NCBI GenBank assembly: GCA_949287225.1
Contig: CASEFP010000031.1
Location: forward strand, 1-58,642
Direction: 5' to 3'
DNA from: an uncultured Lentisphaeria bacterium
GTDB taxonomy: Bacteria > Verrucomicrobiota > Lentisphaeria > Victivallales > UBA1829
DNA: 58,642 bases
Below are positions 1,715 to 7,977 of this stretch, piece after piece. The position numbers and the translations under genes are program-made. The number at the start of each line of letters is the position of its first letter. The first letter of the stretch is position 1. Under the pieces are notes generated by a model. That model had not been told where the DNA came from, ran no database searches, and saw nothing but the letters and a program-made list of their open reading frames with translations.

Positions 1715-3247
1715 ATGTTAGACAAACTGCTGCTGACCGGCGGCGCGATTCTTGCGCTGAGCGTCTGCGTATCCTGCGCATCCACGGAAACCGAACAGGA
1801 AACGATTCCGCAGAAACAGGCAGTGCAGGAGAAAAAACCTTCCGGGAGCACGCTTTATGCACAGGCACTGAATACGCGTGATACTGCGAAACGCGCAGAA
1901 CTTCTGAAAGAGGCATTCGCCCTCCTTCAGAAAGAGGCGGACGGGGGAGATCCGGAGTCCGCGCTCCATCTCGCCTATATGTATGATCTGGGACACGGAG
2001 TCAAACAGGACGGGATCTCCGCGGCAAAATACTACCGGATCGCCGCGGACAGCGGACTGGTGAAGGGAAAGATGGCGCTGGCACGCTTCTGGCTCCGCAA
2101 CGAGATGTTCCTCGACGACGCGGCAAAACTCGTTGAAAGCATCCCGGACTACCGGAAGGATCCGGACTGTCTGCTGCTGCTCGGCACAATCCGTTATGCA
2201 CAGTCCCGCTATACGGAAGGATTCGAGGATCTTCTCAAGGCGTATCAGAACGCCGGGCGCAACTTCATGATCCGCGACAATGTCTGGAAGGTCGTGCACG
2301 CGGCGTTCCTTGAACTCTACAAGAACGGCAATTACGATGCCGCACTCGCGGAAGCGGACAAGGCTGCGAAGCTGAACCCGAAACATCCCGCAATCCCCTA
2401 CTGCCGCGGACTGGTCGCCGTCAAAAAGAAGCTTCTCAAAGAAGCGGAAGCCTTTTTCAACCAGGCGCTGAAGCTCGATCCGACCGACCCCTATTTTTAC
2501 CGTGAACGGGCCTTCCTGCATGCTTCAAACGGAAAAAAGGAGGCTGCAATGGATGATATCAAAGTTGCGATTGCGGTCTCCGGAAACGCGGTCGAATTCA
2601 TCCATGCGCGGATTGAACTCTACTATCTGCTCAAGGACATCGACGGGTTGATCGCCTATACGACGGAACTTCTCAAACAAGATGAAAAAGACGTCTTCGC
2701 CCGCGTGACCCGCGCCGGAGCATACATGCTCAAAGGCAATTACAAGGGAGCTTACGACGATTACCGGAAACTCTCCGAAATGCCTCTGACGGCGGATATT
2801 CCCGACGTGCAGGAGGGCCTTGCGCTCACAAGTTCCCACATCGGCAAACTCGACGAGGCGGAAAAGGCCTATGAAAAACTGCTCGAAAAGAACGCCACGC
2901 CGATCACGCTGATCAATCTTGCGGAACTCTATGTTGTCCGGGGAAAATATGAGAAGGCGCTGAAACTCCTTGATTCCGACAAGCTGCTCCGTTCCGCAGA
3001 CAAGTTCATGAAATGCATCTCAAGCTACCTTGCAGCCTCCGCACTCCTGGCAACCGGGAAAAATGCGGATGAACCCATGAAAACCTTTCACGAACTGCTT
3101 CCGCAGTTCAAGGCGAAATCCGAGGAAACCGACTGGGATACGGGTCTCTTTGACACCTGGCTCAAGAACGCAAAACTTCCCGCGGGGGCAAAGGAGAAAA
3201 TCGCGGAGATGACGAAGAAGGTCAGCGAAACCTTCCGCGTCAAATAA
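1715..3247 (+). CDS. TPR/Sel1-repeat lipoprotein, function unknown
   Basis: 510 residues. The N-terminus has a short hydrophobic stretch ending at a lipobox-like CVSC (C21), so a lipid-anchored periplasmic protein is likely, although the -3 residue is not the usual leucine. Residues near 75-115 form a Sel1-like unit (ALHLAYMYDLGHGV...AAKYYRIAADSG), followed by helical TPR units such as AALAEADKAAKLNPKHPAIPY and AEAFFNQALKLDPTDPYFY. These are protein-interaction scaffolds. It follows the metal permease by 16 bp with ACGGAG upstream of its start, so it is probably co-transcribed with the transporter. Its stop codon directly abuts the stop of the convergent kinase gene. No enzymatic motif was seen. 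Confidence 0.75.
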   Translation: MLDKLLLTGGAILALSVCVSCASTETEQETIPQKQAVQEKKPSGSTLYAQALNTRDTAKRAELLKEAFALLQKEADGGDPESALHLAYMYDLGHGVKQDGISAAKYYRIAADSGLVKGKMALARFWLRNEMFLDDAAKLVESIPDYRKDPDCLLLLGTIRYAQSRYTEGFEDLLKAYQNAGRNFMIRDNVWKVVHAAFLELYKNGNYDAALAEADKAAKLNPKHPAIPYCRGLVAVKKKLLKEAEAFFNQALKLDPTDPYFYRERAFLHASNGKKEAAMDDIKVAIAVSGNAVEFIHARIELYYLLKDIDGLIAYTTELLKQDEKDVFARVTRAGAYMLKGNYKGAYDDYRKLSEMPLTADIPDVQEGLALTSSHIGKLDEAEKAYEKLLEKNATPITLINLAELYVVRGKYEKALKLLDSDKLLRSADKFMKCISSYLAASALLATGKNADEPMKTFHELLPQFKAKSEETDWDTGLFDTWLKNAKLPAGAKEKIAEMTKKVSETFRVK

Positions 3248-6200
3248 TCACTTCCCCTGTTCCGGTTCCACGCGCGGCCCGTTTCCGGGCTGCGCTTTTC
3301 CTGCGGAAGCATTCTTTTTCTCGCGCAGCAACCAGAACTCCTCGGGAGACTGAGTCGTCGAGTTTTCCATGACAGAAGACTCGTTATTCGTCAGCACACG
3401 CAGATACGGCATCTGTTTCAGAGGTTCGATGTCCTTCAGATTCTTCGGAATATTCAGGTATTCGAGGGGTTCGATCAGGTAAACCGGTGAAATATCCCTG
3501 AGTTTCACGCAGTTGCCCAGGTCGAGCATCAGAAGCGGCATGTCGCGCACGATCCCGATGTCGGAAACCTCCGTGGAGTCGAGCAGAAGCATCTCCAGAG
3601 CGAGCCCGCGCAGAGGTTCAATGTCCGTGATCGGATTCTTTCCGACATCCAGCATTTTCAACGTCTCCATGCCGAACAGCGGCTGGAGCGAGGTAATGGC
3701 ATTGCCGCGCAGGTGCAGTTTCTCCACTGTGGCGGAACGGAGCGCGTCAATTGCGGTGATCCGGTTGTTCGACGCATTCAGGGAAACAAGAAGCATGCCG
3801 CGCAGCGGCGTCAGGTCCTGAATGCGGTTGTTCGCGCAGTTCAGACTTGAAAGCATCATGCCGCGCAGCGGCGTCAGGTCGGAGATTTCATTATGATGGC
3901 AGCTCAGCACCTCGAGCGGCATTTTCTCTATCCCCTTGAGCGAGGCAAGCTTGTTCTTCGAGCAGTCCAGATAGACAAGCGGTTGTGCGGAAATCGGTTC
4001 CAGCGAGCGCAGCCCGAAACCGGAGATGTCCAGACGCTTGAGATTTTTCGTGCGCGCGATCAGAGACAGCAGCATGTCCGCGGCCTCCCGGGGAAGCTCA
4101 AGATGGGGCAGCTGAAGAATCCGTGTGACAATGTTCGTATTCGGATTCAGCTCGAACACCTCGCGTATCAGCTGCAGCGCCTGCGTATAGTCGCCGTCGC
4201 GCCACAGCAATGCGGCGTCCAGTTCCAGAATGCGGTCGCGGTAACGGAATTTGGAGAACTGCGCCGCAATCCGTTTCTTGACTTCGACGAGAGCATTGGT
4301 GCGCTGCTCGCGGCGGGAAAGATTCGAGGCGGCTGTCATGTAGGCGCGAACCAGCGCCATTTCCGCGAGCGGGGTTTTCGCGTAACTGTCGGCAATCTGG
4401 AGATATTTGCCGACGGCGGCGGCGGGAAGGCCGGCCTCCAGCAGCGTGTCGCCGGCGATCAGGGGAGTCGTCTTTTCCGGAATCGCAAGGCGATAGACCG
4501 CTAGCGATCGGATCGTGGTTCCGTTGGCGAAAGCGCGGATGCCGACGCGGGCCAGCCCCTCGCCCGTCGGAGGGAAATAATCCATGGCGTTGACGGAATG
4601 GGTCTTGCCGATGGTCAGGGAGAGGTGGTCGTCACGGCGTATCGCAGTCACTGTAACGGTCTGTCCGGGCACAAGTTTCGTCTCCCCGGAGCTCACATAT
4701 TCCACGGAGTAGGGATCGTTGACCTTTGCGATCACATCCTTTGTTCCGCCGAACCCGCCGACGATGAACGTGTAGCCGTGGGGAATCTGCCACCACTCCT
4801 TCCTTGGCGTGATCTGGCTGTCAAGCGAGATCTCCAGCGCCTCCATGACCTGCGGCACAGACACCGTGAGCACTACCTTGACATTGCCGTGCAGTTTGGA
4901 ATCGAGCCAGAGCCAGGTTCCCTTTGAAGTTTCCAGTCCTGCCTCCGTAATCCGCCATTCCGGCGCGGGTTTGTTCAGATTGGCATCCATGAAGAAGAGC
5001 CCTTCAAGCGTCGCGTCCGGATCTGTAAAGGTCTGCTGATAAACGGGAATCCAGTCGCTCTGCCAGCGCGCGATTTCAAAATACGCGTAAAGTGCGAGGA
5101 ACACAGCAAGACAGAGAGTCGTCGTGACCGAGGCGACCAGAAGGCGGTGGCGTCTGACCATGAGCAGGAATTTCCGGATCACGCCGGCTTTTTCCGCTTT
5201 TGTATCGAATCCGTCGATATAGGCGATGACCTCGTCGCGCAGCTCCTTGACCGAGGAATAGCGCTCGGCGGGATTCACGCTCATCGCCTTCAGGATCACC
5301 GCTTCGATGCCGTGCGGGATCTCGCGCCCTGGAACCCGGCTGCTCGGCCTGACAATGTTTCCGTAGATGGTGTCGTGAAGCATGCTTTTGAGATCGCCGG
5401 GTTCAAGCGGGTCCTTGTAAGTCACCATTGCGTAGAGAATCGCCCCGAGCGCATAGACGTCGGTGCGGACATTGCTCCGGCTGTTTTTTCCCGCGGCCTG
5501 TTCGGGCGCCATATAGCCGGGGGTGCCGTTCATCACGCCGTCGAGCGTCAGCTTGAAATTGGTGTAGCCCTTTCCGCTGCGGGTACTGCGTTCAGGGACG
5601 GGATCGACGCCGGGCGCATGTTTGCCGGAGATGGAGCGTGCCAGTCCCCAGTCGAGAATCAGCACTTCACCGAACTCTCCGATCTGGACATTTTCCGGCT
5701 TGAGGTCGAGGTGAATAATGCCTTTGGAATGGGCAAAGGCCACGCCGTTGCAGATGCGCAGATAAAGGCGCATCAGGGACTCAAATGTATAGTTTTTCAG
5801 ATACGCCGGATTGCCTTCGTCCATCTTTTTCAGGAGCGAGGCGAGCGACTCGCCGCTCAGGAGCTTCATCGTGAAGTAGGGCGAGCCGGAGGAGTCGATT
5901 CCGATGTCGTGGACCGGAACGATGTTCGGGTGTTCGAGGCTGGCGGTAACGCGCGCCTCCTGAATGAAGCGGAGAATTTCCGCGCGGGAACGGTGTTCGA
6001 TGTCCGGCATCAGCGCCATCGCCACGTCACGCATCGTATCATTGTCACGGACCTGGAGAACCATCTTCATGCCGCCGCGCCCGATGCTTCGCCGGAATTT
6101 GTATTTGTCCGGCGGCTTGACGGAGAGCTTCGCGGTCACGAAATCGTCGATGTCCAGCGACTTCGGATCGAGTTTCGCGGTCGCCTCCATGTCGGATTTG

Positions 6201-6319
6201 CGCATCCGCTCGCGCGCCTTGATCTCGTGAATCTCGTTCTGCACGTTGTCGATGGCCTGCGATCCGGCGGTCTCGGTCACGGGTGGACGAGCATCATCCA
6301 TCTCTTTTCTGTCAGCCAT
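3248..6319 (-). CDS. Membrane Ser/Thr protein kinase with WNK-like lysine placement and LRR ectodomain
   Basis: 1023 residues. The cytoplasmic kinase domain (about 72-372) has a glycine loop IGRGGMK (79-85), alphaC glutamate (E121), catalytic loop HLDLKPEN (203-210, catalytic D205), DWG (223-225) and APE (271-273). The usual VAxK lysine is absent: the strand reads VAMA (99-102). A lysine instead sits in the glycine loop (K85), where WNK kinases carry theirs. HRD is HLD. A transmembrane helix lies near 392-414. Beyond it are a beta-rich domain resembling concanavalin-like lectins, a TPR-like helical part, and about six 21-residue leucine-rich repeats (LxxLxCxxNxIxDLxPLRGM). It is the last gene of a four-gene operon; the ribosome-binding site overlaps the upstream stop. 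Substrate unknown. Confidence 0.88.
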   Translation of the reverse strand: MADRKEMDDARPPVTETAGSQAIDNVQNEIHEIKARERMRKSDMEATAKLDPKSLDIDDFVTAKLSVKPPDKYKFRRSIGRGGMKMVLQVRDNDTMRDVAMALMPDIEHRSRAEILRFIQEARVTASLEHPNIVPVHDIGIDSSGSPYFTMKLLSGESLASLLKKMDEGNPAYLKNYTFESLMRLYLRICNGVAFAHSKGIIHLDLKPENVQIGEFGEVLILDWGLARSISGKHAPGVDPVPERSTRSGKGYTNFKLTLDGVMNGTPGYMAPEQAAGKNSRSNVRTDVYALGAILYAMVTYKDPLEPGDLKSMLHDTIYGNIVRPSSRVPGREIPHGIEAVILKAMSVNPAERYSSVKELRDEVIAYIDGFDTKAEKAGVIRKFLLMVRRHRLLVASVTTTLCLAVFLALYAYFEIARWQSDWIPVYQQTFTDPDATLEGLFFMDANLNKPAPEWRITEAGLETSKGTWLWLDSKLHGNVKVVLTVSVPQVMEALEISLDSQITPRKEWWQIPHGYTFIVGGFGGTKDVIAKVNDPYSVEYVSSGETKLVPGQTVTVTAIRRDDHLSLTIGKTHSVNAMDYFPPTGEGLARVGIRAFANGTTIRSLAVYRLAIPEKTTPLIAGDTLLEAGLPAAAVGKYLQIADSYAKTPLAEMALVRAYMTAASNLSRREQRTNALVEVKKRIAAQFSKFRYRDRILELDAALLWRDGDYTQALQLIREVFELNPNTNIVTRILQLPHLELPREAADMLLSLIARTKNLKRLDISGFGLRSLEPISAQPLVYLDCSKNKLASLKGIEKMPLEVLSCHHNEISDLTPLRGMMLSSLNCANNRIQDLTPLRGMLLVSLNASNNRITAIDALRSATVEKLHLRGNAITSLQPLFGMETLKMLDVGKNPITDIEPLRGLALEMLLLDSTEVSDIGIVRDMPLLMLDLGNCVKLRDISPVYLIEPLEYLNIPKNLKDIEPLKQMPYLRVLTNNESSVMENSTTQSPEEFWLLREKKNASAGKAQPGNGPRVEPEQGK
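3794..3880 (-). repeat. Duplicated 24-bp segment encoding LRR units of the kinase
   Basis: An identical 24-base segment occurs at 3794-3817 and 3857-3880, exactly 63 bp (21 codons) apart. It encodes the DLTPLRGM part of two neighbouring leucine-rich repeats. Identity at DNA level means the repeat array expanded recently or is kept alike by recombination. Confidence 0.8.
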
Positions 6320-6326
6320 ACCTCAC

Positions 6327-7196
6327 CTATAAACACAGCGGGACACGTCCCGGCCCTTTCCTGTCAAGCGCGCCGCCGGCGAGCACACGGTCCAGCAGCG
6401 CGGTCATTGTCTCCCGGTCCTTCGGGAAGCGCCCCTCCAGCGGGAACGGCACCGAGGCGTGATTCGCCCGGAACACCGTCGATTTCAGCTCCAGCGCGGC
6501 GATCAGGTCGCGCATTTCCGATACGGACTCGTATTCCGTCAGCGGTTCGTAAGCATCGTACATCGCAAGGCCGGGCACTTCGATGAAACGCAGCAGCGAA
6601 AGAATTTCCGGCTGCATCGCGTTCAGCACCGCGACCGTGTCGCGCACATGCGCACTGCGGAAACGCCGCCCGCCGATTCCGCCGAGCACCATGACCGAAG
6701 TCCGGATGCCGGCGCCGCGGAGACGGTGCACAGCCTCGGTCATATGCGCGGCGGTGTCGTCCTTGCGCACCAGTTGCAACACCTCCTCGTTTCCGCTTTC
6801 GAGCCCCATATAGACGATTGCAAGTTTCAGTTTGTGCAGACGCGTCAGCGCCTCGTCCGTTTTTGCCAGCACCGAAGATCCGTTCGCATACATCGTGATG
6901 CGGGCGAGACGCGGAAACTTTTCATTCAGATACTCCAGAATCCGGCAGAGCGTCCCGAACGGCAGAAACATCGCGTCGCCGTCGGCGAGAAAAATTCTCC
7001 GCGCGGACCGCCAGGAAGATTCCGCCGCACGGTCAATCTCGCAAAAGAGTTCCCGCAGATCGCGCGCACGGTAGGCAATCCCCTTGTACATGCCGCAGAA
7101 ACAGCAGCTGTTGTGCGGACACCCGCGCGCCACCTGAAAAATCAGGCTTTCCGCCTCGGCGGGCGGTCTGAACAGCGGTTCCTTCAGCCAGTCCAT
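6327..7196 (-). CDS. Radical SAM protein
   Basis: 289 residues from the chosen start. Cysteines C26, C31 and C34 in GCPHNSCCFCGMY fit the iron-sulfur/SAM motif of the COG1032-like branch with the spacing C-x4-C-x2-C. YMGLESGNEEVL and VMVLGGIGG resemble the SAM-binding strands of the barrel. The frame is open further upstream, to 7247, but a clear GGAGG (7204-7208 on the opposite strand) precedes the ATG at 7196, and the longer version would overlap the methyltransferase gene. The substrate is not recognisable. It lies between a SPOUT RNA methyltransferase and the kinase; an RNA- or protein-modifying role is possible but is guesswork. Confidence 0.8.
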   Translation of the reverse strand: MDWLKEPLFRPPAEAESLIFQVARGCPHNSCCFCGMYKGIAYRARDLRELFCEIDRAAESSWRSARRIFLADGDAMFLPFGTLCRILEYLNEKFPRLARITMYANGSSVLAKTDEALTRLHKLKLAIVYMGLESGNEEVLQLVRKDDTAAHMTEAVHRLRGAGIRTSVMVLGGIGGRRFRSAHVRDTVAVLNAMQPEILSLLRFIEVPGLAMYDAYEPLTEYESVSEMRDLIAALELKSTVFRANHASVPFPLEGRFPKDRETMTALLDRVLAGGALDRKGPGRVPLCL

Positions 7197-7209
7197 CGGC
7201 GCCCTCCTC

Positions 7210-7977
7210 TCATACCGTTCCGGAGAACGTGCGGCGGACGTGTTCAAACAGAATCACGGTCGCAGCCTGCGCCACGTTCAGGGACTCCGCGTCACCGGGC
7301 ATCGGGATCAGCACGTTCACCGCGCCGGGGATCTCTCCGGCTCCCGCGCCCTCGCTGCCGAGCACCACCACGCTGTCCGTGAAAAGTTCCGGTTCGGTAA
7401 AAACATTCCGGCCGCCGCCGGGAGCGGTCCGGAAGATGCGATGAAATCCTCTGCCGCGCAGCAGCGCGACCATCTCGTCAAGGGTGCCGTATTCCCGGAC
7501 GGCAAGCGCGAACTGCGCGCCCGAAGCCGAGCGCACAACCTTGTCCGAATAGGGATCCGCGCATCCGCGGGTCATCCAGACCTCCCGGAGCCCGGCGGCG
7601 CGCGCGGTGCGGAGAATCGTTCCCAGATTTCCCGGATCGCCGACCCGGTCGAGCAGCAGCGCGAACGAGCCGGCAACCGGCGCTTCGGCGGAGAGTTTCT
7701 CCGGACGGCGGGCGACAACGAGAATTCCCTGCGAGTTCACCACCGTGCGGGAGACGCGTTCAAATTCCATTTCGGACAGGATGACCGGCGCAAGCGGACA
7801 CTGCTCGGGAACCGTGACACCTTCACGGAGAATCAGAATTTCAATCAGATCAGGACGCAGACGCAGAATTTCGCGCGAAGAGCGCAGCCCGTCGCAGACG
7901 CAGAAATCACTCCCTTTTCGCCCATGCCTCGTGGAGAGCGAACGGATCAATGCCTCCTGACGTTTCGTAAGCTGCAA
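7210..7977 (-). CDS. SPOUT-family (TrmH/RlmB-like) RNA 2'-O-methyltransferase
   Basis: 255 residues. The N-terminal part (KRQEALIRSLSTRHGRKGSDFCVCDG) looks like the substrate-binding domain of the SpoU/TrmH family. The C-terminal half carries the knotted SPOUT motifs: DRVGDPGNLGTILRTA, then GSEGAG, and IPMPGDAESLNVAQAATV near the end. Members methylate a ribose 2'-hydroxyl in rRNA or tRNA using SAM. The exact target cannot be told from sequence; 23S rRNA is common for proteins of this length. Second gene of the TPR-SPOUT-radical SAM-kinase operon, 10 bp after the TPR gene. Confidence 0.88.
   Translation of the reverse strand: MQLTKRQEALIRSLSTRHGRKGSDFCVCDGLRSSREILRLRPDLIEILILREGVTVPEQCPLAPVILSEMEFERVSRTVVNSQGILVVARRPEKLSAEAPVAGSFALLLDRVGDPGNLGTILRTARAAGLREVWMTRGCADPYSDKVVRSASGAQFALAVREYGTLDEMVALLRGRGFHRIFRTAPGGGRNVFTEPELFTDSVVVLGSEGAGAGEIPGAVNVLIPMPGDAESLNVAQAATVILFEHVRRTFSGTV

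Follow-up and report, generated by a model that had tools for sequence, protein, structure and literature searches.

The 58,642-nucleotide stretch from an uncultured Lentisphaeria bacterium analysed here (the window) quite probably encodes a catalytically active Ser/Thr kinase of receptor type, which spans the membrane, belongs to the PknB-like superfamily and has its phosphate-anchoring lysine in the glycine-rich loop instead of strand β3. The best reading of the sequences is that this is a bacterial variant of the WNK-type lysine relocation. The arrangement is shared by a large family and is not the oddity of one kinase.

The gene occupies positions 3248..6319 of the minus strand, on which all features described below lie unless stated otherwise, and encodes a protein of 1023 residues made up of a cytoplasmic kinase, one transmembrane helix and an ectodomain. 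The kinase domain (residues 73-358, 5246..6103) matches Pfam PF00069 (Pkinase) with an E-value of 7e-32. Its AF2 model shows a confident kinase fold (pLDDT 88.9, pTM 0.87), for which M. tuberculosis PknB is the best PDB match (5u94, Z 31.6, rmsd 1.5 over 246 residues). Besides the fold, the protein has the catalytic Asp, Asn, metal Asp and αC Glu of Hanks-type (PF00069) kinases. A direct reading of the sequence bore out all of the residues listed in the initial annotation. The lysine K85 lies in the glycine-rich loop (GRGGMK, 6065..6067), and the canonical β3 lysine site, equivalent to PKA K72, is occupied by A102 (VAMA, 6014..6016). The αC glutamate is E121 (5957..5959). The HRD motif appears as HLD (203-205; L204-D205 at 5705..5710), with the catalytic Asp kept and the Arg replaced by Leu, and is followed by the catalytic-loop Asn N210 (5690..5692). 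The DFG motif appears as DWG (D223-W224-G225, 5645..5653).

In order to compare this arrangement with that of WNK1, we verified the letters of the WNK1 kinase domain on PDB chain 5w7t before aligning them. K85 falls on K233, A102 on C250, E121 on E268, D205 on D349 and D223 on D368, with no gaps at the two lysine sites and a spacing of 17 residues between them in both proteins. Hence, the earlier proposal that K85 takes the position of the displaced WNK lysine holds. The window kinase thus combines the missing β3 lysine with a lysine in the glycine loop/β2 region, as WNKs do, and retains the HxD and DxG aspartates, but its β3 residue is Ala, not Cys, and Arg348 of the WNK1 HRD motif is matched by L204. 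A search of its relatives, as the initial annotation had suggested, returned GGMK together with VAMA, IAMA, LAMA or VALA in all of the best 30 homologues.

We then compiled 305 non-redundant kinases, drawing on the window's order and class, on other phyla and on a nearly complete Lentisphaeraceae-like kinome. As the set was collected by similarity, its proportions are not population frequencies, whereas the exclusivity of the two lysines is independent of the sampling. Written as glycine-loop residue/β3 residue, the states are K/A in 141 kinases, G/K in 129, A/K in 27, S/K in 7 and K/K in one, and there is no kinase with neither lysine. K/A and X/K (where X is G, A or S; 163/305) are mutually exclusive in 304 of the 305 kinases (Fisher p 1e-88, a value that assumes independence of rows, which fails here). 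Wherever the glycine-loop lysine has replaced the β3 lysine, the β3 residue is Ala (141/141). The two sites therefore swap as a unit almost perfectly across the sampled kinases. The exclusivity is not absolute because one sequence inside the K/A clade, L218, carries both lysines (AEGGFK...VVVK, with HLD); it may be a natural intermediate or a partial reversion.

Within the genus, the codons of K85 and A102 vary only synonymously (AAG/AAA and GCG/GCC), and the region from the N-lobe to the catalytic loop shows 50-69 synonymous codon differences against 4-5 nonsynonymous ones. This synonymous excess shows that purifying selection maintains the arrangement, which is no sequencing slip.

Two additional active-site positions separate the K/A kinases from the canonical DWG kinases. 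One is the HRD arginine, which is lost in 138 of the 141 K/A kinases (Leu in 135) and kept in three. The other is that of Q212 (5684..5686), which we take to correspond to PKA L173, the C-spine residue beneath the adenine ring. Residue counts across the set show that it is mostly polar in K/A kinases (Q 88, R 13, N 12 of 141) and hydrophobic in X/K kinases (M 95, L 44 of 163). Neither HLD nor the polar adenine floor is a WNK feature. All three HRD-keeping K/A kinases (L150, L227, L272) have a hydrophobic residue at the adenine-floor site, which suggests, with n=3, that the loss of the Arg and the polar floor are coupled. We considered HLD as an exclusive partner of the lysine swap and dropped the idea in view of ten X/K sequences with Leu and the three K/A sequences with Arg. 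Loci from several phyla (L136, L231, L145, L139, L168, L169, L185) combine HLD with the canonical β3 lysine, i.e. they have lost the Arg without the swap. With L204 in place of the Arg, the window kinase is of the non-RD type. Non-RD kinases do not rely on docking of a phosphorylated activation loop at the HRD Arg, and activation of the K/A kinases would likewise be independent of such docking.

The swap, the co-variation, the conserved catalytic set, the kinase-transmembrane layout and the near-single clade described below are read from the sequences; the contact of K85 with the phosphates, the activity, the direction of signalling and an origin independent of WNK are inferred. In the mechanism that we propose, K85 would enter the room left by the small side chain at position 102, pair with E121 of αC and hold the α and β phosphates of ATP, as its WNK position implies, while D205, N210 and D223 would perform the chemistry as they do in ordinary kinases. 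WNK1 cannot catalyse without its displaced lysine, which fills the role of PKA K72 (PMC1821047; PMC4718504). An active kinase using K85 is the best reading because this lysine occupies the WNK position, co-varies with the loss of the β3 lysine and is accompanied by the rest of the catalytic set.

The absence of the β3 lysine is, however, a usual criterion for a pseudokinase, and the bacterial ActPs2, DYD and DLHK groups, which lack it, have been classed as such (PMC12599244). The K/A proteins might accordingly be pseudokinases or nucleotide-binding scaffolds that signal by conformation, in which K85 aids ATP binding or the fold and phosphoryl transfer is lost or negligible. The missing HRD Arg and the polar C-spine residue fit such a role, as both could weaken nucleotide binding or activity. 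Nevertheless, every one of the 141 divergent K/A sequences retains the catalytic Asp and Asn as well as the αC Glu, 140 of them also retain the DxG Asp, and the GTPGYMAPEQ segment is strongly conserved, whereas pseudokinases typically lose some of the catalytic residues. An example of the latter is L074, a degenerate domain with NLN, EWG and no glycine-rich loop that is nested near the K/A clade and is likely a true pseudokinase. We consider a general loss of activity rather unlikely and favour an active kinase because strong purifying selection has preserved the whole catalytic set.

Nucleotide binding that is independent of K72 is known in several kinases (PMC4718504), so an active K/A kinase might anchor the phosphates by another residue and use K85 for a structural or substrate-related purpose. 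This is very improbable given that K85 is present exactly where the β3 lysine is absent, at the WNK position and in 141 of 141 cases.

The initial annotation also noted that the WNK arrangement creates a chloride-sensing pocket and that a bacterial version may be regulated in an unusual way. In its full form, the idea is that the relocation gives this kinase a WNK-type pocket with which it senses chloride. In favour of this, the lysine relocation is shared and L226 preserves the equivalent of WNK1 L371. F283 and L299, which we take to be chloride-pocket residues of WNK1, are replaced by V136 and F149. The chloride-contact residues L369 and L371 (PMC5346417) correspond to W224 and L226, which leaves one of the four residues unchanged. 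WNK regulation requires Leu at position 369, as mutation of the equivalent Leu322 of WNK4 results in constitutive phosphorylation and activation (PMC5346417). Furthermore, DWG is also found in 76 of the 163 X/K kinases, and since the Trp is common to these canonical relatives, it was not selected for anion binding. With three of four pocket residues changed, including Leu369 to Trp, a WNK-type chloride pocket is unsupported and chloride sensing by it is barely credible, although anion binding elsewhere is still conceivable.

For the phylogenetic analysis, trees were built with three trait columns removed. On a fasttree phylogeny of 305 rows (304 scored), the K/A trait needs three changes, and all 141 K/A rows fall into one set together with only three others: L074, L218 (K/K) and L229 (G/K). 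When the long rows are left out and a mixture model is applied to 80 rows, a single change suffices (SH-aLRT 90). The K/A kinases are thus essentially a single clade, with its centre in Lentisphaeria, Kiritimatiellales and some Verrucomicrobiota. As so few changes are needed, a single origin of the swap in these bacteria is most likely, followed by one or two reversals at most perhaps. The swap probably arose in this area alongside the loss of the HRD Arg and the acquisition of a polar residue under the adenine ring. WNK1, a single long eukaryotic branch, was placed among the PknB-like X/K kinases when the tree was left unconstrained; a clade of K/A kinases and WNK1 was not rejected by an AU test (p 0.78), which is an unfair test with one long branch. 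Because WNKs adjoin OSR1/SPAK in the human kinome (PMC5346417), the bacterial swap is probably independent of the eukaryotic one.

The spread of the trait among genomes was estimated with a strict DNA pattern (GGMK, 14 residues, AMA), with the reversed pattern as a control. A broader pattern turned out to be noisy, as a Shine-Dalgarno sequence followed by ATG AAR mimics GGMK, and the stricter AMA version was adopted for this reason. The strict pattern is present in 85 of the 388 genomes of the window's phylum and its reversed control gave zero hits. The carriers comprise most of the window's order, families f11 and f30 and single genomes of f19 and f25; four of the five f11 genomes have 7-10 copies and the remaining one has a single copy. 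In Myxococcota, the pattern occurs in 1/189 genomes, in a match that is not kinase-like by sequence. In Planctomycetota, it occurs in 2/246 genomes and is kinase-like only in G444. This genome contains many K/A kinases (L317, L319-L322, L327, L330, L337, L342, L348), for which gene transfer, misclassification and contamination are possible explanations. The named K/A loci belong to Lentisphaeria, Victivallales, Lentisphaera marina, Pontiella/Kiritimatiellales and Verrucomicrobiota, including Akkermansiaceae.

Of the 16 Pkinase hits in the window's own genome, the window kinase is the only carrier of the swap among those that could be read. In the Lentisphaeraceae-like genome G230 (5.5 Mb), there are 105 Pkinase hits, and 90 loci were read (L197-L286), 54 of which are K/A against 34 with the canonical β3 lysine and one K/K (about 89 classified). 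This kinome is an unusually large, lineage-specific expansion, in which K/A kinases are the majority of the kinases read. The K/A profile matches 37 times in G407, a MAG of the Akkermansiaceae; the eight matches with the highest scores, which are the ones that were read, are all K/A. The origin of the swap would have been followed by a large expansion of the family, with the ectodomains as the likely sensors of input.

In the window kinase, a hydropathy scan places the single transmembrane helix at residues 393-411 (5087..5143). The AF2 model of the ectodomain contains a β-sandwich (about residues 423-611, 4487..5053; model strands 11-199) and a TPR-like helical segment (about residues 620-756, 4052..4462; model helices 208-344) with a weak TPR_14 match. 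These are followed by leucine-rich repeats (about residues 762-976, 3392..4036; Pfam LRR_4, 1.8e-23), the fold matches of which are of the internalin type (4fmz, Z 24.7, rmsd 4.1 over 265 residues). A hydrophobic segment just past the kinase domain was found by hydropathy in all 27 K/A proteins scanned (that of the window and 26 others); some of them end after it at 370-420 residues and most carry an ectodomain.

Directly upstream on the same strand is a gene for a radical SAM protein (6327..7247; Pfam Radical_SAM, 5e-18). Several families of the order have the same pairing with a K/A kinase, at identities of 46-84% (L353-L355, L359, L035, L361), and for this reason the two proteins may work together. 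On the plus strand, a TPR/Sel1 repeat gene (1715-3247) converges on the kinase gene with zero gap, and such a gene is also near the kinase in L353 and L354. PADLOC hits to PD-T4-6 were discarded as generic kinase-domain matches.

If active, the K/A proteins should leave the automatic lists of pseudokinases, and they would offer a test of whether relocation alone confers ion sensing, as proposed for WNK. They also provide natural replicates of what a kinase must alter to move its lysine, as the β3 Ala, HLD and the polar adenine floor co-vary. More tentatively, and with the odds somewhat against it, a large bacterial clade may have evolved the WNK solution independently and rebuilt the whole nucleotide site (relocated Lys, Gln under the purine, non-RD loop). 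The receptor kinases that resulted would then dominate Lentisphaera-like kinomes and differ in their dependence on nucleotide, metal or ions. The literature that we searched, in which subscription journals are scarcely covered, yielded no account of such a kinase family in Lentisphaerota or Verrucomicrobiota. The K/A kinases are a genuine and conserved family of bacterial proteins, apparently undescribed so far, which resembles WNKs at the lysine and lacks the other WNK features tested.

Among known systems, the PknB/Stk1-type kinases provide the nearest solved structures (34% identity to PknB 5u94) and share the fold and the kinase-transmembrane-ectodomain layout, but PknB has Ser in the glycine-rich loop, the β3 lysine (VAVK), HRD, DFG and Met at the adenine floor. 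The best NCBIfam match of the kinase region is chlamydial PknD (NF009651/PRK13184, 1.2e-68); at 232 bits against a cut-off of 839, the window kinase falls outside that family. Like the K/A kinases, the ActPs2, DYD and DLHK pseudokinases are without the canonical β3 lysine, and basic residues in β2 of DLHK have been proposed to aid ATP binding (PMC12599244). They differ in having Arg or degraded motifs and in occurring in Actinobacteria, Firmicutes and Proteobacteria, and none is described with a glycine-loop Lys/β3 Ala swap and an intact catalytic set (PMC12599244). In the CAK-chloro subfamily and in POMK, a basic residue of the glycine loop is thought to replace K72 (PMC1821047, PMC12599244), but CAK-chloro (Arg55/Met72) and the sugar kinase POMK are not PknB-like Ser/Thr protein kinases.

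Among the 50 matches listed by the fold searches there was no WNK chain, which is uninformative as all kinases score high. The eukaryotic WNK1-4 share with the window kinase the lysine at the identical glycine-loop/β2 position, the small β3 residue and the spacing, and both retain the αC Glu, the catalytic Asp and the metal Asp. WNK1 differs in Cys versus Ala at the β3 site, HRD versus HLD and DLG versus DWG. Unlike WNKs, the window kinase is bacterial and transmembrane, and it has a polar C-spine residue and an altered chloride-pocket region. In a 2007 survey, WNK was the only functional ePK family without K72 (PMC1821047), whereas the K/A family, under purifying selection, spans many genera.
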